Source: Promethearchaeota archaeon (GTDB lineage Archaea; Asgardarchaeota; Lokiarchaeia; Sigyniarchaeales; SOKP01). Taken from it: a DNA stretch of 64,000 nt. The notes beneath the pieces were generated by a model. It made no database searches and was not told the DNA's origin. It saw only the letters and a program-made list of their open reading frames with translations. Shown here one piece after another: positions 5,184 through 62,029 of the stretch; position 1 is the stretch's first letter, and the number at the start of each line of letters is the position of its first letter. The position numbers and the translations under genes are program-made. The stretch spans positions 62,001 to 126,000 of the forward strand of contig JAEOTP010000007.1 in the NCBI GenBank assembly GCA_016839765.1, given 5' to 3'.

Positions 5184-7337
5184 TTAAACCAAACTCAATT
5201 TATTATTACAACTGGGGCAAAATAGGGGTAATTCTTGTTCACATGATTCTAGTATATCACTATTTAGCATCTTTCTCCAGCATACTAGTTTATCTTCTGA
5301 TTGAATCATATCTCTTCCATGATGTTGAGGTATAATCCGTTTTGTTTTACAGTTCTCGCAAATTATCATAATTGATTCTGTATTAATATTATCGGAAGAG
5401 ATTTCAGAAATTTTATTTTTATAACGAAATATTCTCATAGCGTTCAACATTACGGCGAGTGAAACTCCCATATCGCCAATTCCTACAGCTAACCATAATG
5501 TCATTAACCCAATGACCGTTAAAACAGCAAAAGACACTTTAATACTAATTGATGCCCAGATATTTTGTTTTATAATTTTATTTGTTTTCTTTGAGATATC
5601 AATAAAATCAATAATTTTTTTAAGATCATCATTTATAATGATAACATCAGCAGTTTCTAAGGTAAGATCTGTAGCAGAAGCACCAATGGCTATTCCTAGA
5701 TCTGATAACGCTAAAGCAGGAGCGTCATTTATTCCATCTCCCACCATCGCAACACCTTTATAATTAGCTTTTAATTTTTTAATTTCCTCCAATTTTTGGT
5801 CTGGCAATAGTTCACCGTATATATTATCTATATCTAAACAATAACCAATTGTATTGCATACATTTTGATTATCACCTGATATTAGAATAGATTTATATTT
5901 TCTTCTTTTCAAACCATCTATTAATAAAGGAGAAGTTATTCTTAAGACATCTCGAATAGAAATTAATCCAATTAGTCCATTATTTCCAACCAATATTGGG
6001 ATAGTTCCATTCTCTTCAATTTCTTTTAATTCTTCAATTGGTAGATTAAAATTAAGCTCATTAAAAAATTTCTGGCTACCAATATAATATAATCTTCCGT
6101 TAATCTCTCCCTTTATTCCCATTCCTTTTGAGATTTCAAAATTAGTGACATTCAATAAATCAACATTCATCCTTTTAGCTTGGCTAACAATTGCTTGACC
6201 AATAGGATGTTCTGAAAGTGATTCTAAACTCGCTGCGATGCCTAATATTGCATTCTCATCATATCCCCCATAAGCTCTAACCTCAAAAACTTTAAGAGAT
6301 CCCTCCGTTAGCGTCCCAGTTTTATCAAATGCAATTGCTTGAATTTTATCAACTTTTTCAATAAATACATTTCCTTTTACTAAGATACCTTCTTTTGCCA
6401 ATTTTGTGAGCGCTGTAATATTTGCTAATGGCGTTGAGAGTGTTAAAGCACAAGGGCATGATACTACTAGCAAAATTAAGCCACGATAGAACCAATTATT
6501 AAAATCTAATCGAAATATTAACGGAGGTAATATCATTACTATAAGTGACATAATTAGTATTATTGGAGTATAATACTTGGCAAACTTCTCAATAAATTTC
6601 TCACTTTTACTTTTATTTTGCTGTGCTTCTTTTATACTTCGTGCAATTTGAGCTACAACAGTATCATTGGTTTCTCTAATTACTTCAACGTCAACAAAAC
6701 CCTCAGAATTAATACTAGCAGCAAAGACCTCATCTCCTTCAATTTTAAATACTGGTAAAGATTCACCCGTAATTGTACTTTCATCAAAATACGATTTACC
6801 TTTTATAATAATACCATCTAAAGGAACTTTCATTGCTGGTTTCACACCTATTATATCTCCCTTTTTAATTTGGATAGCTGGTACAGAAATATACTCATTT
6901 CCTTTTTTTAACAATGCTTCATTAGGAGATAATTCAAGTAATTCTTTAATTGCATCTCGAGATTTATCTGTGGTAAGTTCTTCTATATGTTCTGCAATAG
7001 CATATAGTAGTATGGCAGTTGCGCCTTCTTGACCATGGAGAATAAAAAAGGAAGCAATAGTTGCAATTATCATTAAAATATTTGCCGTTATTTTTTTATT
7101 AATTACATCTTTAATTGCTTCTTTAACTACACCATAACTAGATAGAATTATCGAAAAGATTGCTAACAATTGGCCTATCAAGACTTCTTCAAAAGCAAAT
7201 TCCAAAAAAATAGCTATTGTTAATAGTATTGCAGAAGGTATTATGAAATACCAAAACTTTTTCTCAAAAAAAGTGCTTTCTTCTATTTCTTCTATGTTAA
7301 TATCACAAGCAGCGTGTGAACATTCAAAATGAGAGAT
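5184..7337 (-). CDS. heavy-metal-translocating P1B-type ATPase with C-terminal zinc-ribbon-like tail; probable ATC start
   Basis: A metal-pumping P-type ATPase of the inner membrane. It has the TGES actuator loop, the membrane metal site SCPCALTLSTP (CPC), the phosphorylation motif DKTGTLTEG, the SEHPIG motif and the hinge GDGINDAPALA. Together these fit a Zn/Cd/Co or Cu exporter. The last 65 residues add CENC, HHGRDM, C and CPSC motifs, a likely extra metal-binding ribbon. The only usual start codon (TTG at 7205) falls inside the first membrane helix. The frame stays open upstream through FECSHAACDINIEEIEES and a hydrophobic helix back to a stop, with no ATG/GTG/TTG. An ATC 5 nt after GGTGAT is the best start (717 aa). 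A one-base A-run error that would link a GTG is the alternative. Confidence 0.88.
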   Translation of the reverse strand: MSHFECSHAACDINIEEIEESTFFEKKFWYFIIPSAILLTIAIFLEFAFEEVLIGQLLAIFSIILSSYGVVKEAIKDVINKKITANILMIIATIASFFILHGQEGATAILLYAIAEHIEELTTDKSRDAIKELLELSPNEALLKKGNEYISVPAIQIKKGDIIGVKPAMKVPLDGIIIKGKSYFDESTITGESLPVFKIEGDEVFAASINSEGFVDVEVIRETNDTVVAQIARSIKEAQQNKSKSEKFIEKFAKYYTPIILIMSLIVMILPPLIFRLDFNNWFYRGLILLVVSCPCALTLSTPLANITALTKLAKEGILVKGNVFIEKVDKIQAIAFDKTGTLTEGSLKVFEVRAYGGYDENAILGIAASLESLSEHPIGQAIVSQAKRMNVDLLNVTNFEISKGMGIKGEINGRLYYIGSQKFFNELNFNLPIEELKEIEENGTIPILVGNNGLIGLISIRDVLRITSPLLIDGLKRRKYKSILISGDNQNVCNTIGYCLDIDNIYGELLPDQKLEEIKKLKANYKGVAMVGDGINDAPALALSDLGIAIGASATDLTLETADVIIINDDLKKIIDFIDISKKTNKIIKQNIWASISIKVSFAVLTVIGLMTLWLAVGIGDMGVSLAVMLNAMRIFRYKNKISEISSDNINTESIMIICENCKTKRIIPQHHGRDMIQSEDKLVCWRKMLNSDILESCEQELPLFCPSCNNKLSLV

Positions 7338-7477
7338 TTTTTATCACCTAATTTAAAAATACTGAAGAAAACATAAAAACTTGATATTTATGGATAATAA
7401 AAAAAAATCCGTTCTAAAGTTATTAGATATTGATATTTAGTTAAATTTATTATTTTTCAAAAAAAATTCTAAAAAAT

Positions 7478-8359
7478 TTACTTGATAACATATACTAATT
7501 TTTGACCCTCATCTAGAGGAAGGTTTAATTTTTTTCTAATTTCATTTCTTATCAAATATCCACCTACATGAAGAATAGAATCTTTTAAAATTGAGTCTTG
7601 GTCCATGGAAGCATTACACGGATATGAATGATGTGCTTTACTAATTCTTTCATTTAAACTGAGTTCTCCATTACTAATATATTTACTCTTTAATTGTTGT
7701 AGTATAAAATAAGTTGAGCCACATGGAGCACTTTGTAGAACACAGCTGTCTAAAATAGCGTTTCCCTCTTTATTTAATAAAAACGAAATTATAGGAACGC
7801 CTATTTTAAAGTATTCAATAAATTCTAATATGTAATTTCTATCTTTAGTGATATTGAACCCTTCTCTATTATGTTCATTAAGCTCTTTGCTCAATGAACA
7901 GAAAGGTTTCGGAAAAGCGGCTTGAATACCAAATTGCTCAAAATCATTTATAATTTGCACTTGTAATCCCGGTGGAACCCATTTCGGGTTTTCAATTGGA
8001 ACTATAACAGCCTTTATTTTTGTATTCTTCAGATATTCAGGTAATCCTGATAGTAAATCTTGATGAATCCCAACGACTAATAAAAACTCCACCTGTGGTA
8101 TATTTTTTGGTAAATAATCCTCAGGGTTTTCTATAAAACCTGGAACATTTTCTCCAATTTTCTCATAGAAGTAAACAGAACCTGAATAATTTTTTAAATT
8201 TTCTCTACAATGGTCACACTTTACATTTTGTTCGTATAATTCACATGCTTTACAGAATTGATCATCATTAATAAGATTTCCAATAAATTTTTGAGCTAAC
8301 ATCTCTGTATCGGGATCTGCGCCATAGAATACTCCAAGTTTATAATGCTTATCGTTCAT
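7478..8359 (-). CDS. DUF166 family protein
   Basis: A 293-residue protein recognisable as the archaeal DUF166 family, sometimes labelled thymidylate-synthase-like. Features are an N-terminal ligand-like Cys cluster (CKACELYEQNVKCDHC), the block VPIENPKWVPPGL, then FPKPFCSL and the conserved SAPCGSTYFI near residue 210, with YPCNAS and a C-terminal HVGGYLIR segment. The spaced cysteines suggest a metal or iron-sulfur centre, but no function is established for the family. Cytoplasmic, with no membrane segments. ATG start, with no strong ribosome site and no operon partner: the genes on either side are well separated. Confidence 0.8.
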   Translation of the reverse strand: MNDKHYKLGVFYGADPDTEMLAQKFIGNLINDDQFCKACELYEQNVKCDHCRENLKNYSGSVYFYEKIGENVPGFIENPEDYLPKNIPQVEFLLVVGIHQDLLSGLPEYLKNTKIKAVIVPIENPKWVPPGLQVQIINDFEQFGIQAAFPKPFCSLSKELNEHNREGFNITKDRNYILEFIEYFKIGVPIISFLLNKEGNAILDSCVLQSAPCGSTYFILQQLKSKYISNGELSLNERISKAHHSYPCNASMDQDSILKDSILHVGGYLIRNEIRKKLNLPLDEGQKLVYVIK

Positions 8360-8580
8360 TATGAATTATATTTAGTTATTACTTTTATTTATAATTCTAA
8401 TATTTTAAAAACCTTATAATTTTTAACCCGAACATCTTCATTTGCTTTATAATTTCAATTTTAAATAATAATATAGTGAAGAAAGGATTAATATGAGGCA
8501 TTATAATTTAAATACTATATGCATTATGCTTATCATATAATATATTATTTTAAAAAGAAATTTTTTCACTCTATTACGAA

Positions 8581-9417
8581 ATGGAGATTTTAGAAATAAG
8601 AAAAGAAATAATCATTGATTTAAGGAATGAAATTCCAGAATTAGTGGACAAATTTAACCATTTCATATTAAAAAAGTTACCTAGTAAAAAAAACTCCGTT
8701 TTAAATATAGTGTTTAACCAGAAAACGGATCGATTTCCTAAAGAATTTATAATTAAATTATTTAGAACTGATAAATCTAAAAATGAATATTATACCTTGA
8801 ATAATTTAACAAAACAAGAAATAAAATTGCCAAAAATTCTCTTTTTTAAAGAACCATACTTATTTCTTAAGAAAATAAAAGGAGTAAATCTATGTGATTT
8901 CATTAATGATAAATTGCGAAATGTTGTAAGTATAGATGATTTAGATCCAGAATCTAAAGAAGGAATATTTGAAGGTTTAAACAAATTAGCTGCCTGGTTA
9001 GCTCAGTTACATAATATGAATATTGTAGATGCTTCTGACAATTCAAAAATCATCGTTTTAAACAAAGGAGACACAAGATTGAGAGATTTTATTTATAACA
9101 TTGATAAAAATAAAATATCTGGAGTCGATTTTGAAGATTCCTACAATGGAAATCATTTAGATGATATTACATGGATTTGTTGTTCCTTACTTGATACTAA
9201 TCCCGGAATATTTGAATTAGATAATCCAAAATTAAAGATTGATTTGATTAATTACTTTTTACAAAGTTATTATAAAATAAATACTAATTTTCACTTTGAT
9301 TATAATTATTTTGTAGGACAACTGATTGAAAACCTTAATCTCGTAATGAGAAGAAGAAATATCAATTTAACTCTTGATAAAGCATACTTTATTGAAGATA
9401 TTTCAAAAGAACTCTAA
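8581..9417 (+). CDS. aminoglycoside/choline-kinase-like phosphotransferase
   Basis: A 278-residue protein with the layout of the small kinase-like (APH/choline kinase) fold. It has an N-lobe lysine in FIIKLFRTD, a hinge segment PYLFLKKIKGVNL, the catalytic loop LNKGDTRLRDFIYN (GDxxxxD-type) and the metal-binding stretch GVDFEDSYNGNHLDDI that replaces DFG. Members phosphorylate small hydroxyl compounds or serve as protein kinases; the substrate is unknown here. The catalytic loop starts with GDT rather than the commoner HGD, so activity is likely but not certain. The ATG follows an AT-rich promoter-like stretch (ATATAATATATTATTTT) with no ribosome site, consistent with a short-leader or leaderless transcript. 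Confidence 0.6.
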   Translation: MEILEIRKEIIIDLRNEIPELVDKFNHFILKKLPSKKNSVLNIVFNQKTDRFPKEFIIKLFRTDKSKNEYYTLNNLTKQEIKLPKILFFKEPYLFLKKIKGVNLCDFINDKLRNVVSIDDLDPESKEGIFEGLNKLAAWLAQLHNMNIVDASDNSKIIVLNKGDTRLRDFIYNIDKNKISGVDFEDSYNGNHLDDITWICCSLLDTNPGIFELDNPKLKIDLINYFLQSYYKINTNFHFDYNYFVGQLIENLNLVMRRRNINLTLDKAYFIEDISKEL

Positions 9418-13036: not shown

Positions 13037-13681
13037 ATGAAAATGAATGATAAAGAGATAGCTGAACAGAAGGAAAATAAAGAATATCAACAAAAATTCA
13101 AAGAAACTGGTTTCATTGAAAAAAAGAAAATTACCAATCTTGATCTAATATATTCCTTTATAATTGGAGTATTAGGAGGGATTATTTCCAGTTTAATTCC
13201 TTTTAGTCTCTTAATCAAAGTATGGTTTCCTTTTACGGGAGGAACTCAGTTAGTAAGTGGTCATCATGTTATTTGGGCATCAATAGTTTATGGTTTAACA
13301 AAGAAGAAACAAAACGTTTTCTTTACTATGATTTCTAAAGGATTACTTGAGTTTTTATTAGGAGATCAATTAGGTTTACTAATAATTTTCGTTAATTTCA
13401 TGGAAGCTTTCTTCTTAGTAATAGGTTTTCTTATAATGGAAAAAGTAGGTGAAGGAGAAACTAAATTAGGATGGGGGATCGCAGGAGGTTTCGGAAACAT
13501 TTTTCAAGCACCATTCATTTGGATCATCAAACAACGTTGGTTTCTTCATTGGAGTCTTTGGGCACTAGCTTTTATCTTTGCTTTTCTATCTGGTATATTT
13601 ATAGTTGGTTTATTAGGCAGAACTATAAAGAATGAATTAATAAAGGCAGGAGTTCCAATAACGTTTCAAATAGAGGTGTGA
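13037..13681 (+). CDS. ECF transporter S component (YkoE-like substrate-binding subunit)
   Basis: 214 residues with a charged cytoplasmic N-terminus (1-33) and five to six membrane helices (about 36-60, 75-95, 100-135, 140-165, 172-205). The segment FPFTGGTQLVSGHHVIWASIVYGL and the later ISKGLLEFLLGDQLGL are typical of YkoE/HMP-type S components, which confer substrate specificity in energy-coupling-factor importers. It is directly followed by the ATPase and T subunits and preceded by two exported SUOX-like proteins. The substrate is unknown; thiamine precursor is the nearest family precedent, but the context suggests a metal or pterin cofactor. The family assignment rests on topology, short motifs and neighbours. 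Confidence 0.7.
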   Translation: MKMNDKEIAEQKENKEYQQKFKETGFIEKKKITNLDLIYSFIIGVLGGIISSLIPFSLLIKVWFPFTGGTQLVSGHHVIWASIVYGLTKKKQNVFFTMISKGLLEFLLGDQLGLLIIFVNFMEAFFLVIGFLIMEKVGEGETKLGWGIAGGFGNIFQAPFIWIIKQRWFLHWSLWALAFIFAFLSGIFIVGLLGRTIKNELIKAGVPITFQIEV

Positions 13682-13688: not shown

Positions 13689-15494
13689 ATTTCAAATATT
13701 GCTCTTTCTTTTGAGAACTTTTCTTTTATATACAATCAAGATAAAAAGCAAAAGCCATGTGTCTCGGATATAAACTTCCAATTAAAAGAAGGTGAGACTT
13801 TAATTTTAGCAGGTCCAAGTGGGAGCGGTAAATCTACTTTATCGTATGCCATGAATGGAATTATCCCTTGGAGACAAAAAGGTTTGGTTAAAGGAGATGT
13901 TAAAATTTATGGAAAAAGTTTCTGGGATTATTCATTTTCAGATTTATCTAAAATAGTGGGATTAGTAAAGCAAAATCCTATTGAACAATTAGTAACTTTT
14001 ACAGTAAGAGATGAAATTGCTTTTGGATTGGAAAATCTAAACTGTTCGAAACAAGAGATAGAAGCTAAAATTGAAGAGATTTCCAAACTAATGGGATTAA
14101 ATAATATTTTGGATCGTTCAGTTGAGCAATTAAGTGGGGGTCAAAAACAACTTACTATATTAAGTTCATTTTTAGTAATGAATCCCAAAATCCTTATTTT
14201 AGATGAGCCAATAGCATTTTTGGATCAACAATCTGAGAGTTTACTCCTTGATAGGTTAAAAAGTTTAATTAAATCCAAGGAGTACTCTTTAACATTAATA
14301 ATAATTGAGCATCGTTTATCTCGTGTTATTGATAGTGCAGATAAATTGGTAATTCTTGATGAAACTGGAAAAATAGCTCTAAAAGGAGACGTCACTGATA
14401 TATTACAGAACCACTTTGATGAGTTAAAATCATGTAATGTAAGAGTACCATGGTTAATTGACATCTTTGATGCTTACAGAAAAATTACCAAAAATGAATT
14501 TGTAATTGAAAATTCCATGAATTTTCAAAAATTCTTTAATTTAATATCTAAATTTGATGAAAATAACCTAAAGATTTTACAAAATATTATTGAAAATAAA
14601 GAAATACAAACAAAAGAATTACAAAAATATCAAGAATTAGAAAAAAGAATTGATATAAATGAGACTTATGTAAAGTCATTAAAAAATAAGAAGTTTAATG
14701 GAAATGAACAAGATTTTAATGATGAAATTTCAAATGAAAACAATATAATTTTAGAAACTAAGGATCTTTCCTTTAGTTATCCAAACAGCGGTGTTCAGGC
14801 TTTAAAAGGTTTATCCATAAAAATACAGAAAGGGGATTTTATTGGTCTTATTGGTCCAAATGGATCTGGTAAAACTACGCTTCTTTACTTGCTAGCTAAT
14901 TTATACAAACAAACATCTGGTGAAATTTTTTATCAGAATAAAAGATTAGATGATACTGATCCTTATAATTATGCCAAAAAAGTTGGTTTTATATTTCAAA
15001 ATCCTGAAAATATGATATTCAAATCTACAATTAAAGATGAAATCTTATACGCCCCTAGAAATTTTGGGATCTATAAAGAGTTAAGAGAGGAATACGTTAA
15101 AAAATTAATAGATTTAATCGGAAATGAGGATCCATTGAAAAATCCATATAATTTAAGTTGGGGTCAAAAAAGGCGTTTGAATTTAAGTTCTATATTTATT
15201 TATAGTCCTGAGATCATCTTATTAGATGAGCCTTTTATTGGTCAAGATCAAAAAACTATTGATTCTTTAATAGAAACGCTCTATATTGAAAACAAAAGAG
15301 GAAAAACAATAATCATTTCCTCCCATGATTATCATTTATTATTAAAGTATACAAAAAGGATTATTGAACTAAGTAAAGACGGAACACTTCAAAATTATGA
15401 TACTAAAAGTAATTATTTTATCAAACATAGTAATCTCGGACCTATTATACTCTTAAACGAGATTAATAATAAGTTAAATGAGGTTGGAATTTAA
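13689..15494 (+). CDS. ECF transporter fused double ATPase (EcfA-A'); probable ATT start
   Basis: Two ABC ATPase domains in one chain of about 601 residues. The first has Walker A GPSGSGKST (43-51), signature LSGGQKQL and Walker B ILILDEPIAFLD. The second has GPNGSGKTT, a degenerate signature LSWGQKRRL and IILLDEPFIGQD. They power the ECF importer with the adjoining S and T subunits. The first ATG in frame (13851) lies after Walker A, so a start there is impossible. Upstream the frame reads SNIALSFENFSFIYNQ, a normal ABC N-terminus, back to a stop, with no ATG/GTG/TTG. ATT, 10 nt after GAGGTG, is the best start. The stop overlaps the T-subunit start by one base. Confidence 0.9.
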   Translation: MSNIALSFENFSFIYNQDKKQKPCVSDINFQLKEGETLILAGPSGSGKSTLSYAMNGIIPWRQKGLVKGDVKIYGKSFWDYSFSDLSKIVGLVKQNPIEQLVTFTVRDEIAFGLENLNCSKQEIEAKIEEISKLMGLNNILDRSVEQLSGGQKQLTILSSFLVMNPKILILDEPIAFLDQQSESLLLDRLKSLIKSKEYSLTLIIIEHRLSRVIDSADKLVILDETGKIALKGDVTDILQNHFDELKSCNVRVPWLIDIFDAYRKITKNEFVIENSMNFQKFFNLISKFDENNLKILQNIIENKEIQTKELQKYQELEKRIDINETYVKSLKNKKFNGNEQDFNDEISNENNIILETKDLSFSYPNSGVQALKGLSIKIQKGDFIGLIGPNGSGKTTLLYLLANLYKQTSGEIFYQNKRLDDTDPYNYAKKVGFIFQNPENMIFKSTIKDEILYAPRNFGIYKELREEYVKKLIDLIGNEDPLKNPYNLSWGQKRRLNLSSIFIYSPEIILLDEPFIGQDQKTIDSLIETLYIENKRGKTIIISSHDYHLLLKYTKRIIELSKDGTLQNYDTKSNYFIKHSNLGPIILLNEINNKLNEVGI

Positions 15495-16369
15495 TGAAAG
15501 ATAAGAACAAAGTGTTAGACTATAAGAAATATACATTTGCATATTTTCCTGGAAATTCACTTTTTCATAAATTAAATCCCATCTCAAAGATTATTTTTTT
15601 AATTTTTCTCACGATAATTACGTTTATAATAAAATCTTTACTTTTCTTGACTCTTCTTTTGTTTATTATTATATTATTGACATTTTTTAGTAGCATTTCT
15701 CTAAAAAATTTTCTTAGAAAAACTAGATTTATTATTCTTATTCTAATTTTTAGTGTTTTTCTTAATCTTTTTTTTAACGCTATCCCGAGCGATCAGGATA
15801 TAGTTCTATTTTATCTATTTAATTTAGATTTTTTACCTATAAGAAGATTAGCAGTATATTATGCGCTTAGAGCATTACTAATTGTTCTCACATTATATAG
15901 CTCCACAATTATTTTTAGTAATACAACTTCTGCTAAAGATTTTGTATATTCTTTAATGAAACTGAGGATTCCATACAAATATTGTTTTTCATTCATGGTT
16001 GGAATTAAATATATTCCTTCAATTGAACAAGAAGCAAAAACTATTTCCCTAGCTCAGAGAGCAAGAGGTTTTGGTTTAGAGAAAGCAAATACTATTAAGA
16101 AAGCTTACCGATTAATTTCTGAAAGATTGATGTCCACTTTAGTATCCATCCTTAGAAAAGGGCATACTACTTCTATTTCAATGGAAAATCGTTGCTTTGG
16201 ATTATATAAAAAAAGAACTAATATTACAGAAATCAAATATAAATTATTGGATATCGTTTTTATTTGTTTTTGTACTTTTTGGTTTGTATTAATTACACTA
16301 TATTTATTTAAAATTTTGCCGATACCACAATTCCCTTCCTTATATCAAATATACTTAAACCTCTTTTAA
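15494..16369 (+). CDS. ECF transporter T component (EcfT)
   Basis: 291 residues, a polytopic membrane protein with helices at about 28-70, 80-100, 108-145 and 250-275. The long cytoplasmic arm between them contains the two EcfT coupling motifs: QRARGFGLEKA (Ala-Arg-Gly) and SMENRCFGLYKK, which dock on the two ATPase halves. It forms the energy-coupling module with the fused ATPase immediately upstream, whose stop codon overlaps this ATG by one base. Length and motif order are normal for the CbiQ/EcfT family. The transported substrate is set by the S component, not by this gene. Confidence 0.9.
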   Translation: MKDKNKVLDYKKYTFAYFPGNSLFHKLNPISKIIFLIFLTIITFIIKSLLFLTLLLFIIILLTFFSSISLKNFLRKTRFIILILIFSVFLNLFFNAIPSDQDIVLFYLFNLDFLPIRRLAVYYALRALLIVLTLYSSTIIFSNTTSAKDFVYSLMKLRIPYKYCFSFMVGIKYIPSIEQEAKTISLAQRARGFGLEKANTIKKAYRLISERLMSTLVSILRKGHTTSISMENRCFGLYKKRTNITEIKYKLLDIVFICFCTFWFVLITLYLFKILPIPQFPSLYQIYLNLF

Positions 16370-16460: not shown

Positions 16461-17333
16461 ATGGTCAATACCATGGCAACTGTTGAAGAAATTCAACAAA
16501 AATATGCGATTGTTGGAAGAACCGAAGAGCTGAAAAAATTAATATTAGCTCGATCTGTTGGAAAACATATTTTAATCGAAGGAGAAGTTGGAGTCGGAAA
16601 AACAACCGTTGCGCGAGCTATCTCTTCTTATTTCGATTCTGGCTTTTATAGAGTTGACTGTAATGAAGAGACTTTATCACATAATCTTGTTGGATATTGG
16701 GACCCCCCCTTAGTAATAGCAAAGGGCTATATAGAAGATTCTTATGTATTTGGGCCACTTGCTTCTGCTATGCTTAATGGAGGGTGTCTATTCATTAATG
16801 AAATAAATAGAATGCCAGAAAGCACTCAAAATTCTTTGTTAACTGCTTTGGATGAAGGAATTCTAGACATTCCTAAATTAAAAACTATTCGCGCCCATAA
16901 AGATTTCTTTGTTGTGGCAACCCAAAATCCTGCTGCTCATGTAGGTGTGACTGTTTTAGGAGAGGCTTTAAAAGATAGATTTATATGGGTTAAATTAGAT
17001 TACCAGAACCCTGAAGAAGAAATTTTAATTATAAAAAAAGAAGCAAACCTTCATGATTCGAATAGTGATAACGTGGCAAAAGTCTGCCAAAATATAATTC
17101 AAATGACACGAGAACTTACATCAATTCGTCGAGGTAGTTCAATAAGAGGTGCAATCGATCTTGCTGGATTGATTTCTAATTCTGGTAAAGAAAGTAGCAC
17201 CAAAAATTGGGTTGAAGCAGGTATTATGGCTTTATATAATAAAATCGAATTAGAAGATGGTGTAACTAGATCAAAGATAGAAATCATTACAGATATTATT
17301 CTTTCTACTTTAAATGAAGTGGATTTTCAATAA
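16461..17333 (+). CDS. MoxR-family AAA+ ATPase
   Basis: 290 residues, one AAA+ module of the MoxR/CoxD group: Walker A GEVGVGKTT (about 43-51), Walker B GCLFINEINRMPE, sensor-1 FFVVATQNPAAHVG, an arginine-finger region LKDRF and a C-terminal lid. MoxR proteins work with a VWA-domain partner to insert metals or cofactors or remodel complexes; the partner is the very next gene. Two possible ATGs lie four codons apart; the second (MATVEEIQQKY) resembles the usual family start. The pair lies 90 nt after the ECF T subunit on the same strand, so maturation of a cofactor-dependent enzyme is a reasonable but unproven link. Confidence 0.88.
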   Translation: MVNTMATVEEIQQKYAIVGRTEELKKLILARSVGKHILIEGEVGVGKTTVARAISSYFDSGFYRVDCNEETLSHNLVGYWDPPLVIAKGYIEDSYVFGPLASAMLNGGCLFINEINRMPESTQNSLLTALDEGILDIPKLKTIRAHKDFFVVATQNPAAHVGVTVLGEALKDRFIWVKLDYQNPEEEILIIKKEANLHDSNSDNVAKVCQNIIQMTRELTSIRRGSSIRGAIDLAGLISNSGKESSTKNWVEAGIMALYNKIELEDGVTRSKIEIITDIILSTLNEVDFQ

Positions 17334-17380
17334 TCGATGATTTCTCTTCTAAAGATTCTGAAGAGATTGAGAATGAACGG

Positions 17381-18445
17381 TTGCACGTAAGATTAACAGA
17401 AAGGATCCCCGATAAGGATATTTTAAGATTCGAGATCATAAGAAAAAAAAAGAAAAAACCTGATTATTATCATCATTTAGCAGATTCATTGGATTATAAA
17501 CAAATTAAAGACTTAACCTTTTTAGCGATTGAATATAAAAATCTCGAAGCCATTATAGGGTTGCTTAAATCAAATGTGTACGCTGCTACAGATGCTTTAG
17601 ATTGTGATAAGGGCGTTAAATTCTTCTCGGAAAAGTCAAAAGATTCAGCAACCTCTATGGCGGAAGTTTATTTTTTCATAAGAAGACCTATCTCTGATAA
17701 ATATAAAAATGTTTTTAGGCGATTAGCCAGACAAAGTATACTAAAAACTTCTCTTAAAATAACAAGTAAAGGAATAAGAGGAAGTTACAAAAAAACAGTT
17801 CCATATTATGAGATAGGAATGCCTGAATTTGATATAGATGAAACTATACAGCATAACCCTCTAAAAATCCATCAGAGAAGTTTATCTTATAAAGATATTT
17901 ACGGTATTAAAAGAAAACAACAAAAGAGGAAAATCATTTTAATTCTTGATACGAGTGGAAGTATGTATGGAAAACTTCTTCTAAATGCTGCTTTAACGAC
18001 TTCGGTATTAGCTTATAACATGGAAAAAGAAGATTATGCAATCGTGTTATTTAACTCAACAGCCATGGTTTTAAAACATATTAATGAAAGAAAACTAATT
18101 ACAGCTATAATAGATGAGATTCTTGATTCTGAAGCAGTTGGTTTTACAAACATCCAAGTTGGCTTAGAAAAAGGATTGAAAGAATTAAGTAAAGTAAAGA
18201 AGAATCCAAGAAATCAATTTGGAATTTTAATTACAGATGGTAATTATAATCGTGGGGAAAAACCATTTGAATTGGCTAAAAAATATCCAAAATTACATGT
18301 AATAGGGATGCCCGCTGAAAATGATGCTGATAGGGGTATTGATACGTGTAAAGAGATTGCAAAAAAAGGGCGCGGCAAATTCTATGCTGTAAATGACTAT
18401 AAGGAAATTCCTAGGGCTTTAATTGAATTATTATCGAAAACATGA
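17381..18445 (+). CDS. VWA-domain protein (CoxE-like partner of MoxR)
   Basis: 354 residues. The C-terminal half is a von Willebrand A domain with the MIDAS motif DTSGSMYGK, the conserved Thr region VGFTNIQVGL and the second Asp ITDGNYNRG. The N-terminal half is basic and unassigned. It pairs with the MoxR ATPase, as in CoxD/CoxE and MoxR/VWA systems that load metals. The start is uncertain. The nearest usual codon is TTG (used here), but the frame stays open upstream for 21 codons (SGFSIIDDFSSKDSEEIENER) with no ATG/GTG, overlapping the ATPase gene end. ATA or ATC at 17330-17335 may be the real start, matching the non-AUG pattern seen in other genes here. Confidence 0.83.
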   Translation: MHVRLTERIPDKDILRFEIIRKKKKKPDYYHHLADSLDYKQIKDLTFLAIEYKNLEAIIGLLKSNVYAATDALDCDKGVKFFSEKSKDSATSMAEVYFFIRRPISDKYKNVFRRLARQSILKTSLKITSKGIRGSYKKTVPYYEIGMPEFDIDETIQHNPLKIHQRSLSYKDIYGIKRKQQKRKIILILDTSGSMYGKLLLNAALTTSVLAYNMEKEDYAIVLFNSTAMVLKHINERKLITAIIDEILDSEAVGFTNIQVGLEKGLKELSKVKKNPRNQFGILITDGNYNRGEKPFELAKKYPKLHVIGMPAENDADRGIDTCKEIAKKGRGKFYAVNDYKEIPRALIELLSKT

Positions 18446-25969: not shown

Positions 25970-26052
25970 AATTAGTAGATTTACAACTTTTATTATTTAT
26001 TTTTTAAGTTACTTTTTATTTATTATAATTATAAAAGGAAAGGTGATTATAA

Positions 26053-26673
26053 ATTTTAATAAAACATAGGGGATATGAACCTAAAGTAGATCCTTCAGTA
26101 TATATTGCACCTAATGCTCTTCTTGTAGGTAGAGTTAAGGTTGGTAAAAATTCGCGGATAATGTATGGTTCAGTTCTAGATTCAGAAGGCTCTAAAGTTG
26201 AGATTGGTGAATGTTCAATTATCTGTGAAAATGCCGTTCTTAGAGCGACAGCAGCAGGGAACAAGGAGTATCCTGTATTAATCGGTAATAATGTTTTCAT
26301 CAGTCCTCAAACGACTCTTATTGGTTGTAGAGTTGAGTCTTTTTCTTACATTGCTACAGGGGCAACTATTTTACAAGGTGCAATAGTTCATTCTGGAGCT
26401 GCTGTAGCTGTTGGCGCCTTTGTCCATTCATATACCGTAGTTCCGAATAAATTCTTTATTCCTCCTAATACTATAGCAATTGGAGATCCCATTAAAATAT
26501 ATAGCCCTGACGAAAAAGAAAAATTGGCAGAAGCCATAGCGTCTATAGGCTTTGCTAAAATTGCCTTTAATGCTGATGCAGAATGGGACGATCGTTTTGC
26601 AAGATATAAACAAGCCACAGAAACTAGATCTAAGGAATTTGAAAGTCATTTTAAAGATAAAATACTAATGTAA
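26053..26673 (+). CDS. left-handed beta-helix (gamma-carbonic-anhydrase-like) protein lacking zinc ligands; probable ATT start
   Basis: 206 residues of hexapeptide repeats: IAPNALLVGRVKVG, then IGECSII, VLIGNNVFI and GCRVESFSYIATGATILQGAIV, ending with the PPNTIAIGDPIKIY turn and a C-terminal helix. This is the gamma-carbonic anhydrase-like trimer fold. The histidines that bind zinc in true carbonic anhydrases (in the IGH...HG strands) are replaced (ISPQTTLIG), so catalysis is unlikely. The first ATG in frame (26161) would cut off a well-conserved first coil. Upstream the frame reads LIKHRGYEPKVDPSVYIAP back to a stop. It has no ATG/GTG/TTG, but an ATT exactly 5 nt after AGGTGAT matches the usual family N-terminus. 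Confidence 0.85.
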   Translation: MLIKHRGYEPKVDPSVYIAPNALLVGRVKVGKNSRIMYGSVLDSEGSKVEIGECSIICENAVLRATAAGNKEYPVLIGNNVFISPQTTLIGCRVESFSYIATGATILQGAIVHSGAAVAVGAFVHSYTVVPNKFFIPPNTIAIGDPIKIYSPDEKEKLAEAIASIGFAKIAFNADAEWDDRFARYKQATETRSKEFESHFKDKILM

Positions 26674-47670: not shown

Positions 47671-47831
47671 TTCAATCGACTTATTTCAATTTTTAAAATA
47701 ATAATAAAATTTTATTTATCCTGCTTTTTAAAATAATCTCTTAGTAGATTATTAAATAAAGTTGAATGTTATATAAACAATGTATTTTTATTTTACTTCA
47801 TATTTTATCATGGGATAATTGGAGGTAAGAA

Positions 47832-49148
47832 ATTATCAAAAATAACTTAGTTAAAACTATTTTAGATTTATTGTCTGAATTTACTGAAGGAAAAACTCAA
47901 ATTATTAAAGAAGAGAAGAGGTATAATCCTCAAATTATCCATTATTATAACGAAATTATCAGAAATTGGAATAAATTAAATTTTATTGTCCAAAAGACAC
48001 TTAGATCATTGGAAAAATCCAATGAGGATAGGTCTTATACCAATGAGCTATTATTGCTTGCTACATATCGGTTAATATTTGAAAAAGTAGACATTGAAAC
48101 AATTATCAAAGAAATGGGCCAAAAAAATGACTTTATTTCATTCTTAGAAAAGCTAAAAACATTTTCTTGGAAACTTGCATTAAAGGGTAAAAGTAAACTT
48201 GAAAAATTAAGCATTAAGGAAGCAATTCCTAGCTTTTTTATTGAACATCTAGTACCGGTAATGAACTTTGATTTTTTAAAAGAAAATATTAAATATATGA
48301 ATCAGTATACATCTCAGAAGAATATTACCTTTAGAATTAATACATTACCTAATGATTCATTAGAATCATTAAAAAATTCAATAGAAAAAGAATTTAATGA
48401 AAATAATATAAAAATTAGGCAAGATGCTAAAATTCCACTTATATTTCATACATCACTTAAAAACAAAAGAAGAATTCTTCTTAGCGATTGGTATAGAAAT
48501 GGTAAATTAATTTTTCAAGATAAAGCATCTTTTTTAATTATTCAATTATTATCACCCCAATCAGGAGATTTTATTTGCGATATGTGTGCTGCCCCTGGAA
48601 TTAAATCTAGTTTAATTGCTCAATTAACTAAAAATGAAGCTAAGATTATCTGTAATGATTTTAATAATAAACGATTGAAATTTACTAAGTTTTTTTTGAA
48701 TTTTTTAAAGGTGTCGAATATTTTTTTAATCAATTCAGATGGAACAAACTTTCCTGTTAATTTAAAAACTAAATTTGATAGAATGTTGATTGATGCTCCT
48801 TGTACAGGTAGTGGAACTTTTTTATCAAATCCAGAACTTAAATGGCGTCAAAATCCAACATTTCTTCATCAAAATATTGTATTTCAAGAAAAATTACTAG
48901 AATCAGGATTAAAATATCTAAAGCCTAACGGTATATTAATTTATTCTACTTGTAGTTTGTATCCTGAAGAAGGAGAATTACAAATTATAAAGTTTAAAGA
49001 AGCCTTAGAACCTTTAACTGTACCAAAATGGTTTTCACCTAGTTATAAAATTAATAATGTGGAATTGAAAGGTACAGGAAGATTATTTCCAGCAATTCAT
49101 AAGACCCAAGGATTTTTTGTGGGTAAATTCAAAAAAAAGGAAAAATAA
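47832..49148 (+). CDS. RNA m5C methyltransferase (NSUN/RsmB family); probable ATT start
   Basis: About 438 residues. A helical NusB-like N-terminal domain leads to the SAM-dependent methyltransferase: motif I ICDMCAAPGIKSSLIAQ, motif IV DAPCTGSGTF (release Cys) and motif VI YSTCSLYPEEGE (nucleophile Cys), diagnostic of NOL1/NOP2/sun tRNA or rRNA cytosine-5 methyltransferases. The N-terminus reads IIKNNLVKTILDLLSEFTEG back to a TAA and contains no ATG or GTG; the only usual codon, TTG (47871), would remove 13 conserved-looking residues. ATT, exactly 5 nt after a perfect GGAGGT, is the best start. Co-directional with a downstream two-repeat protein. Confidence 0.9.
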   Translation: MIKNNLVKTILDLLSEFTEGKTQIIKEEKRYNPQIIHYYNEIIRNWNKLNFIVQKTLRSLEKSNEDRSYTNELLLLATYRLIFEKVDIETIIKEMGQKNDFISFLEKLKTFSWKLALKGKSKLEKLSIKEAIPSFFIEHLVPVMNFDFLKENIKYMNQYTSQKNITFRINTLPNDSLESLKNSIEKEFNENNIKIRQDAKIPLIFHTSLKNKRRILLSDWYRNGKLIFQDKASFLIIQLLSPQSGDFICDMCAAPGIKSSLIAQLTKNEAKIICNDFNNKRLKFTKFFLNFLKVSNIFLINSDGTNFPVNLKTKFDRMLIDAPCTGSGTFLSNPELKWRQNPTFLHQNIVFQEKLLESGLKYLKPNGILIYSTCSLYPEEGELQIIKFKEALEPLTVPKWFSPSYKINNVELKGTGRLFPAIHKTQGFFVGKFKKKEK

Positions 49149-50042: not shown

Positions 50043-50600
50043 TTATTCAATTGTCCAAATTACTGTTCTTCCTTTCTTTTTGAACCTTTTAACTTTTTTA
50101 GCACTTTCTAAATCGGACATAACTTTCCAAATTTGAGAGTTGCTTAGCTTAAAATACCTTCTTAATTCTGGTGTTGACATTTGAGTGCCGTTTAAAAGGT
50201 TTATTATTAATCTCTTAATCTCATCAACAGTATCTTCGTCTGAACTATCTGAATCTTCCTCAGAGTCATTATCATTTACTTCCATTTCATCAATTATCCT
50301 CAAAGCAATTTTATTTAATTCTTTTAAGTTATTTTCAATACCCTGGGGTTTCATAAATAAGCAACATAATTCTAAGTCTCTTGGAAAAGCTACTATATAA
50401 AATTTGTCGTATAGTATTGCTCTTGGTTTTTTTCCTGCATTTCCTCCTCGAAATGCAAGATAAAAATTCATAGCAAAATCATCTAATTTCAATAGCTTAG
50501 CACTATTACTATATCCTCGTTTCCATTTAAGAAATGGACCATCAATCATATCAAATCCAATAAGAGCAGCCCCAAAAAGTTCTTTTTCATTAAAATGCAA
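50043..50600 (-). CDS. longin-like/winged-helix fusion protein
   Basis: 185 residues. The first 110 look like a longin or roadblock-related domain: ELFGAALIGFDMIDGPFLKWKRG opening strands, then AILYDKFYIVAFPRDLELCCLFMKPQGIENNLKELNKIALRI with the central strand and last helix. An acidic linker (DNDSEEDSDSSDEDTVDE) follows, and the last 70 residues are a winged helix (MSTPELRRYFKLSNSQIWKVMSDLES, wing VKRFKKKGRTVIWTIE). Longin/roadblock domains bind small GTPases in Asgards and eukaryotes, and the preceding gene is exactly such a GTPase, overlapping this start by 11 bp. A GTPase-controlled DNA-binding regulator is a plausible reading; the longin identity is by eye. Confidence 0.6.
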   Translation of the reverse strand: MHFNEKELFGAALIGFDMIDGPFLKWKRGYSNSAKLLKLDDFAMNFYLAFRGGNAGKKPRAILYDKFYIVAFPRDLELCCLFMKPQGIENNLKELNKIALRIIDEMEVNDNDSEEDSDSSDEDTVDEIKRLIINLLNGTQMSTPELRRYFKLSNSQIWKVMSDLESAKKVKRFKKKGRTVIWTIE

Positions 50601-51135
50601 TTTCTTTCATCCTCCTTTTAGCAATTTTTTCTAATTCTTTTTTTATAATATTCATAAGTTTACGACGTTCAGCGGGATTAATTGCTGTAAGGCCATATGT
50701 TTTTACATGAAGTATATCTTCTACTCTTTTAGGTTCCATTCTTCCATCATTTTTCGCTAAATCCTGCTTATTGGCAATCACTATTATAGGGCAGTTATTC
50801 TCGACAAAATGGGTTGCATAATTAATTAATTCGCGAGATTTTAGAACATTTTTCGGTGATGAATCGGTTACTACAAAAAGGAGATCTGAACCTAATAAAT
50901 GATCCCTGCTGCAAGATTGTAGATAACCTTGCTGTCCAGCGAAATCCCATAACTTGATGGTAAAACTATCAAACTTTACAGTCTTTAAGTCAAACCCATG
51001 GGTGGGTAGATAAATTCTATCAATTGTATTTTTAGAAAGCAATTTTAAAATTGTAGTTTTACCAACAGCGGGAGATCCAATTATGCTAACCTTGTAAAGA
51101 TTATGTAATTCAGAACTCAACATCTTATTAATCAA
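50590..51135 (-). CDS. Ras-superfamily small GTPase
   Basis: 181 residues with every G box: G1 GSPAVGKT (20-27), G2 Thr in PTHGFD, G3 DFAGQQ (65-70), G4 NKQD (123-126) and G5 LTAIN (150-154). It resembles the eukaryotic-signature small GTPases that are expanded in Asgard archaea, with DFAGQ rather than the DTAGQ of Rab/Ras. There is no C-terminal cysteine for prenylation, so membrane attachment would need a partner. Its 3' end overlaps the longin-like/winged-helix gene by 11 bp, and both are probably made together. Function, GTPase-activating partner and exchange factor are unknown. Confidence 0.9.
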   Translation of the reverse strand: MINKMLSSELHNLYKVSIIGSPAVGKTTILKLLSKNTIDRIYLPTHGFDLKTVKFDSFTIKLWDFAGQQGYLQSCSRDHLLGSDLLFVVTDSSPKNVLKSRELINYATHFVENNCPIIVIANKQDLAKNDGRMEPKRVEDILHVKTYGLTAINPAERRKLMNIIKKELEKIAKRRMKEIAF

Positions 51136-58436: not shown

Positions 58437-58513
58437 ATAGAGAAAATAAAAAGTTTTAATAATTTTAGAATTCTATAAATAATTATTAAGGATAAATCAA
58501 ATGCTTTTTTAAA

Positions 58514-59059
58514 ATGGAAAGCAACAGTATTGACATTAGAGAATTATTTTTAGATATTTTAGAAATAGTTAAGTTTGAACTTCGGTTTTATACCATTAAA
58601 GAGAGTCCGATGTTTGAGCGAATTGTGAAAACAAGAGTGTTCCAACAAAAACTCCAAAGACTTAAGGATTTCATCAATGCGTATTTCGAAATAATGTATA
58701 AAGACGAAGATAGTCCCATTAATCAAGCCGCTCTTCGTGCTCAATTAGATAATATTGCCAGAATTACTAATTATTACAACGATTTATCTGATTTTTATAA
58801 AGACCATACAAAAACTCTTATCACCAAAGAGAAGCTCCAGGGTCTAATAGATTACAGCCATATTGAAATTTTATTCCTTATCTTTACTAATATCATAGAC
58901 TGGGAACATTACAAAAGCAGTTTAATTTTTCCACATAATAAGAGTAAAGAAAAATTATTAAAAGAATTTTTAAGTAAAATTGCGAGTTCAGATATAAAAA
59001 ACCTTGAAGATTTAGTTGATCTTGAGCAATCAATTGAGAGCTTTGTAGCAAATATTTAG
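58514..59059 (+). CDS. helical protein of unknown function
   Basis: 181 residues, predicted mostly alpha-helix throughout (FLDILEIVKFELRFYTIK, RLKDFINAYFEIMYKDED, LRAQLDNIARITNYYNDLSDFYKDH). No signal peptide or membrane segments. The spaced charged residues could suit a HEPN-like four-helix bundle, but the RxxxxH/Rx4-6H ribonuclease motif of HEPN is not obvious; I note a DFYKDHTKT stretch only. It follows the nucleotidyltransferase gene by 77 nt and might be its partner. ATG start. Confidence 0.65.
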   Translation: MESNSIDIRELFLDILEIVKFELRFYTIKESPMFERIVKTRVFQQKLQRLKDFINAYFEIMYKDEDSPINQAALRAQLDNIARITNYYNDLSDFYKDHTKTLITKEKLQGLIDYSHIEILFLIFTNIIDWEHYKSSLIFPHNKSKEKLLKEFLSKIASSDIKNLEDLVDLEQSIESFVANI

Positions 59060-59267
59060 ATTTAATTATAACTACTCTTTTTAAAATTTTTAATGCACGT
59101 TCAAGAATTTTTAATTTTCAACATTCTCTTGTGAAATTCAGTCAAAAATATTTTTATAGTCGAAGAAGTATGTCTAGTAAGAATAGTAAATAATAGTTGG
59201 AATTATTTTCAGAATCGTACATTCTGAAATCTATCAGATTATAGAAGTGTACATAGGTATCAATTCA

Positions 59268-59573
59268 ATGGATTGCATAGCTCAAATTATGGAATTTTAT
59301 CACAATAAAGCAAAAAGTGCTCATGATCCAGTTCAATTTAATAGAGTTTGGTTAAGCAAGATTTTGATAAAATTAATGAATAATTTTAATGGTAAAGCTA
59401 CACCAGAGGATAATTTCCAACTTCGGAGTTGTTTAATTTTATTGATTAATTTATTTTCAAACAATGATACTACTGATCACTATAATAAAAAAGGAAAAGG
59501 AAGTAAAGAACTCTCTGCTAAGGAAAAAGAATTTTTTAAAGAACTCTTAGCGAAAGAATTTCTTAATAATTAA
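59268..59573 (+). CDS. small helical protein of unknown function
   Basis: 101 residues, all helical, starting MDCIAQIMEFYHNKAKSAHD and ending in a very charged Lys/Glu tail (SAKEKEFFKELLAKEFLNN). No known family. A GGTAT-like ribosome site precedes the ATG I use; a GTG seven codons upstream is also possible but adds no conserved-looking residues. It may belong with the preceding helical gene, 208 nt away. Confidence 0.55.
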   Translation: MDCIAQIMEFYHNKAKSAHDPVQFNRVWLSKILIKLMNNFNGKATPEDNFQLRSCLILLINLFSNNDTTDHYNKKGKGSKELSAKEKEFFKELLAKEFLNN

Positions 59574-59595
59574 TTCGATATTTTTTTGAATTTTA

Positions 59596-61881
59596 TTAAA
59601 AAACTTTTAATTCTGCTTCTTTCCATTTATCATATTCATTAAAAATAGTATCAATTTTATCCAAAATCTTTTTAAGTGTTTTTTTTGTGTCTTTATTTTG
59701 ACCAAACGTATCAGTAATTACATTATATATATTAACATTAAATTCTAAAGTTAGGTCAGAGATTTTTTCTAAGTCTTCTTTATTAATTCCGTTTTCCTCT
59801 AATTGTTTAAAAATATCTTCAAATTCCTGTCTTAATCGATTTGTTGCTATTAATGATTTAGAACATTTTTTAAAAAATTGCTTTTCTTTTTCATAAACTA
59901 ATTGATCTTCTTCAGATAAATCTGAAGTACCATTAATCACTTCTAATCTTTCATTAAGGAGATTTATTACTCTTTCATAGGTTTTAATTGCATCCAAAAT
60001 CTTAACCATGCTCTTAATTAAATTATTTTTCCTTAATAGTCGTGCTTCTATTATTTTTAAATTAGCATCTTCATAATAAATCTGCAATTCTCCGAATGTG
60101 CTTTTTTCTCCTTCAGCAATTTTTAATACTATCTGTTTTAGATCTTCATTATGTAAACTTCTTTCTTTCTGTGATAAATCATCACTTTCTAGTAAGTTAT
60201 AAATCTGATTTGCCATACTTTTTATCGAGGTTGCTTTAATGTTTAGCTCCCGCGCTTTTTGTTCAATATTGGTTATGCTCCTAAATTCACCTTCTTTTTC
60301 ACAGTAATTAAAAATTATAATAGCTTCACTAATTAACTTGTTAAATTTTTCAGGACTAGTCAATATATAATATTTAGCATCTTGAACTTTTTGAATTGCT
60401 CTATCCATTTGAATTTCTAATTCAAAAATATAGTCTAATAAACCAACTTGTTTTCGTTCAGATAGAATCATCGATTTGGTGGTTAAATCCTTTCCAACGC
60501 TCCGACTGGCAAAAATCCATAAAATACACGCTGGTATCCACAAAAACACAGAAATAAACATCATATTATATATTCCACTATTATTAAACATACCATTCAA
60601 AAATGATATTAAGAAATAAGACACAAATAAAGTAAGTCCCTTTCCAATTTGCTCAGAAAGGTTTAAGAACGAAATAGACGTTCCTCTATGTTCGGGTAAA
60701 TTGATATCAATCATAACAGCATTTCTATTCGCTACTGGACCAGCAATTAGAATTGTACCAATAAGCCCAAAAATAAAATAATAAATATAATTGGGATATT
60801 TCGAAAAAATTTCTCCTAATGTTAAGAAAATATAATTGGCAAGTTCAGATGTTGGAATTGGACTAGGATAAGTAATATTTAAAATAGTTATACTAACAGG
60901 CTTAATAAGAAGCAGTGTAACTAGATAGAAAGGGAAAGCACTGATCATACAAACCATTGCCAGTCTTGTTCTATTTTTCTTATTTTTTCGATATAAAATA
61001 TCTCCTAAATAGGAAAGAACTAAATTTCCAATAATATATCCAATACCTAATATACCTGCTAAGATAGTAGCGGTTTGTAACCGAATTTGTAGTGGTAAAT
61101 CATTTAAATAATATAATGTTAACATTGAGGTTAGAAAATATATTGTAACTGTTCCGGGAATAATAGAAAAAAAGCTTTGGTAGATGAGATATCGATTCGT
61201 CTTTTTTTTTAAGATTTTAGATAGATCTTTTTTTGAAATAGTATAACTATATTCAAGATTTAGTTCCGTTAAGTCTAATAATTCAGCCTCACTTACACCA
61301 CGTTTGGGTATTTTAACAAAAAAAAGAAAAAATACTATGGCTATACTTATACCAGATAACAAAAAGAATGGGAATCTCCATGTTAAGATTGGACCAATAA
61401 ATGATGATAAAGCTTGTCCAACTCCATTTGAGACTGAACTTAAAATTGCTAAAGTACCAAACCAACCAGATCGTTCATCAGGCGGAATAGCATCAGAAAT
61501 GATAGAGTATCCTACTGGTAATACACAACCCAGACCTGCTCCACTTAACATCCTTGAAACTACCAACATAATGTAGCTCGTTGAAAAGCCAGTTAGGGCC
61601 ATTCCAAATGTCCAGGAAAATGCTCCTGCCATTATAACTTTTGTTCTATCAATCCGATCAGTATAATAACCCCACAATAAAGCAAAAAAAGCGCTTACCA
61701 CTATAAAAAAAGCATCTGGAATTGCTAATAATGCCTCTGGAATATTAAATTCTAATTGAATAGCTGCATAACTAGGGATCAGCATATTAGCACATGCTAT
61801 TGATACAAATAACAATAACATTACTAATAAAATTGGAGTTAAATCCTTCAGTTTAATTTTTGTTAATTTAAAGCGTCCAAT
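59596..61881 (-). CDS. MFS transporter with long C-terminal helical domain; possible ATT start
   Basis: 761 residues if begun at the proposed ATT. A 12-helix major-facilitator core occupies about 20-470, with loop motif WGYYTDRIDRTKV (the G-x-x-x-D-R motif after helix 2) and GVLP-like GCVLPVGYSIISDAIPPDERS. After it, about 290 residues of charged alpha-helix follow (KSMVKILDAIKTYERVINLLNERLE and more), rare in this family. The first ATG lies in helix 1; upstream the frame encodes the basic leader GRFKLTKIKLKDLTPILLV. No ATG/GTG/TTG lies between the stop and 61821, and an ATT sits 5 nt after AGGTTA. Substrate unknown. Confidence 0.8.
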   Translation of the reverse strand: MGRFKLTKIKLKDLTPILLVMLLLFVSIACANMLIPSYAAIQLEFNIPEALLAIPDAFFIVVSAFFALLWGYYTDRIDRTKVIMAGAFSWTFGMALTGFSTSYIMLVVSRMLSGAGLGCVLPVGYSIISDAIPPDERSGWFGTLAILSSVSNGVGQALSSFIGPILTWRFPFFLLSGISIAIVFFLFFVKIPKRGVSEAELLDLTELNLEYSYTISKKDLSKILKKKTNRYLIYQSFFSIIPGTVTIYFLTSMLTLYYLNDLPLQIRLQTATILAGILGIGYIIGNLVLSYLGDILYRKNKKNRTRLAMVCMISAFPFYLVTLLLIKPVSITILNITYPSPIPTSELANYIFLTLGEIFSKYPNYIYYFIFGLIGTILIAGPVANRNAVMIDINLPEHRGTSISFLNLSEQIGKGLTLFVSYFLISFLNGMFNNSGIYNMMFISVFLWIPACILWIFASRSVGKDLTTKSMILSERKQVGLLDYIFELEIQMDRAIQKVQDAKYYILTSPEKFNKLISEAIIIFNYCEKEGEFRSITNIEQKARELNIKATSIKSMANQIYNLLESDDLSQKERSLHNEDLKQIVLKIAEGEKSTFGELQIYYEDANLKIIEARLLRKNNLIKSMVKILDAIKTYERVINLLNERLEVINGTSDLSEEDQLVYEKEKQFFKKCSKSLIATNRLRQEFEDIFKQLEENGINKEDLEKISDLTLEFNVNIYNVITDTFGQNKDTKKTLKKILDKIDTIFNEYDKWKEAELKVF

Positions 61882-62029
61882 AAGCTTAACCTTTCTAATT
61901 TTGTTATATTTAATAACATTAGAGAATTAAAAAAGCTTTCAAACCGATAATTTTTTAAGTAATGCTCTTAATTTTAATAAAATTTGATAAAAGGAAAACA
62001 AATTTATTCAATTATAGGAAAAAAATTAT

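Follow-up and report, generated by a model that had tools for sequence, protein, structure and literature searches.

In Escherichia coli the genes infC and pcnB have AUU start codons. Here we analyse a stretch of 64,000 nucleotides from a Lokiarchaeota genome, a draft assembly of 3.32 Mb in 96 contigs; the stretch comprises bases 62,001 to 126,000 of one contig and is referred to below as the window. In it the genes for a P-type ATPase, a gamma-carbonic-anhydrase-like protein, an NSUN methyltransferase and an ECF double ATPase appear to begin at AUU or AUC, behind Shine-Dalgarno (SD) sequences. We write AUH for AUU, AUC and AUA, and call ATG, GTG and TTG usual starts. The E. coli genes are alike in that AUU stands behind an SD and is read by the initiator tRNA-Met. 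They differ in that infC encodes a factor that polices its own start, whereas the genes here do not encode initiation factors, and in that E. coli uses IF3, whereas the organism here, an archaeon, has aIF1 in its place.

The closest parallel in design is found in Staphylococcus aureus, for which the available portion of a report describes AUU or AUA starts with an extended SD at four sites, in cvfC1, ccpN, citZ and infC. Ribosome profiling and reporters gave about 10% of the AUG level in poor medium and, for ccpN, up to 30% in rich medium (PMC13009471). The S. aureus set resembles ours in its combination of a strong extended SD with AUH, conserved among relatives in cvfC1 and ccpN, and differs in being bacterial and experimental, whereas ours is archaeal, extends to 13 gene families and is drawn from sequence. 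For archaea, an initiation review in its accessible sections names AUG, GUG and UUG and does not mention AUU; the anti-SD that it gives, AUCACCUCCU, and the SD pairing are those used here (PMC7531240). The excerpted text of a 2021 review of archaeal recoding has non-canonical events shown only in elongation and termination (PMC8211752). A search of titles and abstract openings in open-licence PMC found, among the matches listed, no paper on AUU, AUC or AUA starts in Asgard or other archaea, and control at the level of initiation through AUH is unreported for archaea in the literature thus searched.

We propose, with a probability of roughly 0.85, that a minority of genes in this Lokiarchaeota lineage use AUU, AUC or AUA as start codons in place of AUG, GUG or UUG. 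Initiation at AUH behind a strong SD at 4 to 5 nt appears well supported in three of the four main cases. SD strength was scored as a simple stacking sum over the longest ungapped pairing to the anti-SD. No archaeal 16S rRNA was found when the genome itself was searched, and the anti-SD was therefore adopted from the consensus quoted in the review. The exact pattern GGAGGTGATNNNNNATH has no match in this genome, in which the SDs are shorter. Protein labels were taken from Pfam and NCBIfam profiles. The features concerned are the following.

5184..7337, minus strand: heavy-metal-translocating P-type ATPase (TIGR01525, 556.8 bits, above cut-off)
7343..7349, minus strand: SD AGGTGAT of the P-type ATPase (predicted anti-SD pairing -13.1)
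7335..7337, minus strand: proposed ATC start codon of the P-type ATPase, spacing 5 (AAAAA) from AGGTGAT, by orthologue comparison
26041..26047, plus strand: SD AGGTGAT of the left-handed beta-helix gene (-13.1, spacing 5)
26053..26055, plus strand: proposed ATT start of the gamma-carbonic-anhydrase-like (left-handed beta-helix) protein, 26053-26673, by orthologue column
47821..47826, plus strand: SD GGAGGT of the NSUN methyltransferase gene (-13.2)
47835..47837, plus strand: proposed ATC start codon of the NSUN methyltransferase (runs to 49148), spacing 5 in the common register, by relatives
13673..13678, plus strand: SD-like GAGGTG at the end of the upstream gene (-12.0, register spacing 8)
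13689..13691, plus strand: probable ATT start of the ECF double-ATPase gene, 13689-15494; the frame opens at this codon

The P-type ATPase gene gives the clearest case. The original prediction of an SD, 5 nt and ATC at 7337 reads as claimed, with AGGTGAT (-13.1), AAAAA and ATC in succession; the frame opens one codon ahead of ATC, and the GTG within the SD is out of frame. Starts of this gene and of the NSUN gene were read in the best 30 loci each, from 65 genomes searched (61 in an earlier round). In the 30 ATPase orthologues, our own included, the start site is ATT in 16, ATC in 7, ATA in 5, ATG in 1 and TTG in 1. AUH is thus present in 28/30, 4 or 5 nt past the SD, and an SD-like site of -9.7 or stronger lies 4 to 5 nt ahead of the codon in all 30. 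No usual codon is found in frame at or upstream of the site in 16 of the 30, and all 16 have AUH. Sequence conservation starts at the AUH codon. Among named loci, the label is Lokiarchaeota or Lokiarchaeia for all 14 homologues that reach 65% identity; the remaining 16 come from bacteria and are at most 40% identical.

The same comparison bears on the possibility that sequencing or assembly errors changed ATG to ATT or ATC in this metagenome-assembled genome. A single base change per gene would suffice for this, and the assembly is a draft of 96 contigs. However, the closest relative, L132, whose ATPase is 96% identical, shares the identical ATC, and AUH with an SD is found at the equal place in independent genomes of several genera (ATPase 28/30, carbonic-anhydrase-like 7/10). 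An alternation of ATG with AUH at one column among relatives is moreover expected of a start codon and not of assembly error. The search for ATG in close relatives, put forward in the original prediction as a refuting test, thus returned ATC in the closest one, and we regard assembly error as excluded for practical purposes.

The carbonic-anhydrase-like gene likewise shows what had been described, AGGTGAT followed after 5 nt (TATAA) by ATT at 26053. Its frame opens directly at this ATT, with the GTG of the SD out of frame. In 10 genomes with a complete N-terminus a single column holds ATT in 6, ATA in 1 and ATG in 3; the truncated locus L011 was left out of the orthologue counts. For the NSUN gene, GGAGGT and an AUH start behind it stand, and the codon itself has to be moved: ATC 47835 is likelier than the ATT 47832 named originally, one codon before it. 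This ATT lies 5 nt past GGAGGT but at spacing 2 in the register of anti-SD pairing at the other sites. ATC 47835 is preferred because it has spacing 5 in the common register and because its column in relatives is ATC, ATT or ATA, with ATG in G007. Among the best 30 NSUN loci, the in-frame codon 4 to 6 nt past the best SD is AUH in 13 and another codon in 4, with no call in 13. In the ECF double-ATPase gene GAGGTG, 10 nt and ATT 13689 are present as predicted, but the spacing is long, and both the start and the frame opening vary in relatives; a usual start is missing from the N-terminus in 5 of the 15 group members, ours among them. The ATT start of this gene is plausible. The MFS gene, proposed as a weaker case with ATT at 61881, does not hold up, as its SD-like match is weak (-7.6 versus -12 to -13 elsewhere) and ATT 61833 scores equally.

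The arrangement exceeds chance in a wider sample of Lokiarchaeota. This comprised 1,232 coding open reading frames (ORFs) from 24 genomes, after ORFs with masked bases near the start had been dropped (from 1,250). At least 12 coding-like codons precede the first ATG, GTG or TTG in 101 of them, here termed startless. An N-terminal SD-like site fixes one in-frame codon 4 to 6 nt on in 36 startless ORFs, and this codon is AUH in 27 (ATT 12, ATA 10, ATC 5). At SD-like sites inside genes, used as a control, AUH is found at 300 of 2,894 (10.4%; binomial p 1e-19 against 27/36). With one member per gene family AUH is found in 12/21 (p 2e-7), and AUH occurs at least once in 13 of the 21 families. Codons shifted by 1 to 2 nt at the 36 sites are AUH in 5/144, and neighbouring in-frame codons in 1 to 10 of 36. 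The repeated spacing between SD and AUH, which the original prediction held to be hard to explain by chance, is borne out by these frequencies.

They also bear on two other ways of placing the start. The genes may begin at a downstream ATG, GTG or TTG, the stretch upstream being a leader that is open by chance. Internal candidates exist at TTG 7205, ATG 26161, ATG 13851 and TTG 47871, but these lie 44, 36, 54 and 12 codons into their frames, past coding-like sequence, the SD is directly ahead of AUH, conservation of the ATPase begins at AUH, and the frame-fixed place holds AUH in 27/36 against 5/144 at shifted codons. This makes a downstream start highly improbable. Alternatively, the start may be the GTG inside the SD or a near-cognate codon such as CTG, with AUH merely a frequent early residue. 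This agrees with 14 of the 30 ATPase orthologues, in which a usual codon, in most cases the GTG belonging to the SD, is found in frame at the site or shortly before it, so that these 14 are ambiguous; CTG also stands at a start column in G013. In the window, however, the frames of the ATPase and carbonic-anhydrase-like genes exclude the GTG of the SD, and AUH is found at start-like spacing and not at random codon positions. We rate this possibility hardly higher than a downstream start.

Comparisons of orthologues also point to initiation at AUH. In a conserved-boundary test of 56 orthologue groups (471 members, 24 genomes), the first usual codon comes 6 or more codons after the conserved region has begun in 53 members from 14 groups; the 53 include 14 members of the VWA group, and in some of the groups the boundary is doubtful. 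In a start-column test the columns were set by ATG in other members, which left 49 groups with 406 members, 313 of them with a usual codon there. The start column is AUH in 13 of 29 sequences without a usual start within 4 codons, compared with 0 to 8 of 29 at the twelve flanking codons. A poor column was taken for the ATPase group, and the test hence undercounts the ATPase. These two tests replaced a best-column search for ATG in whole alignments, which picked internal methionines. Individual groups show the exchange. The EcfT orthologues of window 15482-16369 have ATA behind a GGGGTG-type SD in G039, G041 and G057, at a column that holds a usual start in 7/11. In a hydrolase ATA replaces ATG at the start column in two genomes outside our own, and in a small GTPase of G032 ATC replaces ATG, with a weak SD (-4.4).

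Two further loci came up in these comparisons. In L173 (G013), the orthologue of window 50043-50606, CTG follows a strong SD at the column occupied by TTG or ATG in relatives, and may be a CUG start. In L048, from our own genome, the minus-strand ORF 130-3583 has a coding-like N-terminus of 84 codons without a usual start, and a very strong SD, scoring -13 to -17, is followed at spacing 3 by two ATC codons; this ORF is an AUC candidate outside the strict rule.

Several observations weigh against initiation at AUH, or limit how widely it can apply. In addition to the 14 ambiguous ATPase orthologues, L153, among the other 16, has ATG one codon downstream, and G007 and G029, outside the 30 read, have ATG at the N-terminal boundary of the ATPase. 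A usual codon is also present 9 codons upstream in EcfT of G041, and 9 of the 36 startless ORFs with an SD do not have AUH. An enrichment analysis of all ORFs (383 kb of our own genome and 400 kb of G038, threshold -11, spacing 2 to 8), noisy at 29 to 30% G+C, did not find ATT enriched (6 seen, 5.2 expected); ATC was seen 4 times against 1.0 expected (p 0.02), and ATG and TTG stood out. In a positive-control sample of E. coli K-12 (300 kb, 230 ORFs), in which the infC and pcnB regions were included on purpose, infC was the only AUH match and pcnB was missed, so that the sensitivity of the pipeline is limited. A search for the initiator tRNA of our own genome identified none.

The rate across the genome weighs in the same direction. 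In our own genome (29.7% G+C in the 383 kb sampled), 5 of 285 ORFs are AUH cases under strict scoring, 3 of them inside the window. Strict scoring outside the window gives about 1%, or 6 of about 540 ORFs (own genome about 2/229, G038 4/308), which is not clearly above the 1/275 found in G070, from another family of the order with 31% G+C. The window, together with the gene block common to relatives, is richer in AUH cases than the remaining sample. The original prediction had suggested relaxed start selection; as a genome-wide trait this is not upheld by the rates outside the window and in G070. The regulatory use on the model of infC that it also raised stays conjectural.

How such starts might be read can be outlined as follows. 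A strong SD of the GGAGGTGAT type, usually 4 to 5 nt ahead of the codon, would dock the 30S subunit. The initiator Met-tRNA, with anticodon CAU, would pair with only the first two bases of AUH and be accepted thanks to SD docking, the SD helix presumably offsetting the mismatch at the third base. Methionine would then be inserted at AUH. Translation would be weak relative to AUG and would hold expression down; the P-type ATPase, with its rarity of AUG at the site, is the most plausible gene for this. No unusual translation machinery seems to be needed. An altered initiator anticodon was sought, and a relative has the ordinary CAT: an initiator-type stem-loop, GGGCTCATAACCC, is found in at least 13 relatives, and ARAGORN calls the initiator-type locus of L234 a tRNA-Met with anticodon CAT. 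Our own genome has one copy of a SUI1/aIF1 homologue.

Two other tRNA genes were observed in passing. A tRNA-Ile gene with anticodon TAT lies at 1388-1466 of L242 (G025), in a cluster of 16 tRNA genes, and the anticodon that decodes AUA may perhaps be UAU instead of a modified CAU. A tRNA-SeC gene is found in our own genome (G000:C34:4362-4449, L286), in agreement with the Lokiarchaeota selenoproteins given in the excerpted text of the recoding review (PMC8211752).

That AUG is rare at this site of the ATPase gene argues against AUG being preferred there. Our results could reflect a standing class of weak starts, made usable by strong SDs and kept by selection in particular genes, above all the ATPase, to throttle translation, although we put this forward only tentatively. 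Against selection for AUH, internal Ile codons are ATT in 52%, ATA in 33% and ATC in 14%, and given this usage the ATPase site may have drifted neutrally among AUN codons.

A different decoding event is suggested by the VWA-domain gene, which the original prediction had listed as a weaker AUH case. Three features are involved.

16461..17333, plus strand: MoxR-type AAA+ ATPase, 0-frame product (AAA_5 2e-21, AAA_3 9e-19)
17321..17327, plus strand: GGATTTT, putative -1 slippery site at the MoxR end (0 frame G_GAT_TTT_CAA_TAA)
17324..18445, plus strand: VWA-domain frame, -1 to MoxR, probably forming a MoxR-VWA fusion (VWA 1.3e-9)

The VWA frame is indeed open upstream, its first usual codon being the 22nd, but ATA 17330 and ATC 17333, the starts proposed, are probably not starts. 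The first usual codon in the window lies 50 nt beyond the MoxR stop, inside the conserved protein. The best fit is that VWA is probably made through a programmed -1 shift at the MoxR end. Such a shift beside the MoxR stop would yield a free AAA+ subunit plus an AAA+-VWA fusion. We consider it fairly likely that a single gene encodes MoxR and VWA across much of the Asgard phylum, the two being joined by a programmed -1 shift at G_GAT_TTT or T_TTT_TTC. Adjacent MoxR/VWA pairs were typed in 58 Asgard genomes (99 searched, VWA matched in 78, other matches dropped). The VWA frame is -1 to MoxR in 52 of the 58 (14 of 16 families) and at another offset in 2, and MoxR continues into VWA as a single open frame of 668-730 aa in 4 genomes, all of family f19. 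Elsewhere the MoxR end reads GAT TTT TAG or GAT TTT TTC TAG. After four loci that repeat a genome had been dropped (46 to 42), a run of at least 4 T lies next to the MoxR stop in 41 of 42 distinct junctions, versus 138 of 1,250 Lokiarchaeota ORF ends. In the 26 Lokiarchaeota genomes of family f1 the junction codons are nearly frozen, with a single codon used in 4 of 6 conserved columns versus 2 of 204 in the remainder of the gene; none of 199 runs of equal length elsewhere reaches this conservation.

VWA might instead be initiated separately, by re-initiation at ATA (in an ATAA overlap) or ATC, or from a usual codon deeper in the frame. A 4-nt overlap of the ATGA type also gives a -1 offset, such offsets are usual in coupled genes, and both ATA and ATC are present in the window. 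Among 16 loci outside f1, 6 carry a usual codon in frame within -28 to +38 nt of the stop: that of L332 is a TTG overlapping the stop, and others lie at -28, -19, +17 (two loci) and +26 nt. In f1 only L318 has a usual VWA codon within 40 nt of the junction. On the other side, neither ATA 17330 nor ATC 17333 has an SD (-5.3 and -5.6), and the ATA column is GTA in 7/26 and the ATC column GTC in 1/26 of the f1 genomes, changes typical of internal Ile or Val; a start at the ATA overlapping the MoxR stop was dropped on account of this variation. The codon that overlaps the stop is usually TTA or CTA in the other families, and the single open frame in 4 genomes also speaks for a fusion. Separate initiation of VWA is in our view unlikely. 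The frameshift has a point against it in its surroundings, as the sequences downstream of the 42 junctions show no clear or stable RNA structure (mean z -0.36).

Precedents for a shift of this kind exist. G_GAU_UUU with a stop within one codon, as at the MoxR/VWA junction, is given as the shift site of pea enation mosaic virus in the accessible part of PMC5009743. The nearest cellular relative of the MoxR/VWA pair is frameshifted chlD, in which, according to the available portions of two papers, the frames of a chelatase medium subunit are joined by a -1 shift, also in archaea (PMC9227772, PMC5009743). The joining is alike; the sites cited in those portions are A_AAA_AAR, and the pair here lies far below the chelatase cut-offs (TIGR02442 30.5 and 24.8 bits versus 779; TIGR02031 24.6 bits, MoxR only, versus 499.6) and shows no clear downstream structure. 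A search of open-licence PMC for frameshifting, archaea and MoxR gave only a halovirus match. That this gene block combines a selected class of AUH starts with a programmed -1 frameshift between MoxR and VWA is doubtful; the joint reading is weakened by the ATG of the ATPase in G007 and G029 and by the usual codons near some VWA junctions outside f1.

If AUH starts are used as proposed, gene finders limited to ATG, GTG and TTG would truncate or mis-start such genes, and the N-termini of Asgard proteins, which are used in arguments on the origin of eukaryotes, would be misassigned in a class of genes that is small but recurs. The MoxR-VWA junction, for its part, would be a widely conserved frameshift in archaea. 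Should it be true that AUH is kept for low output, archaea would share with bacteria a throttle at the start codon, which would have to work through aIF1 and not IF3, and the stringency of start-codon selection would become directly testable in the closest relatives of eukaryotes.

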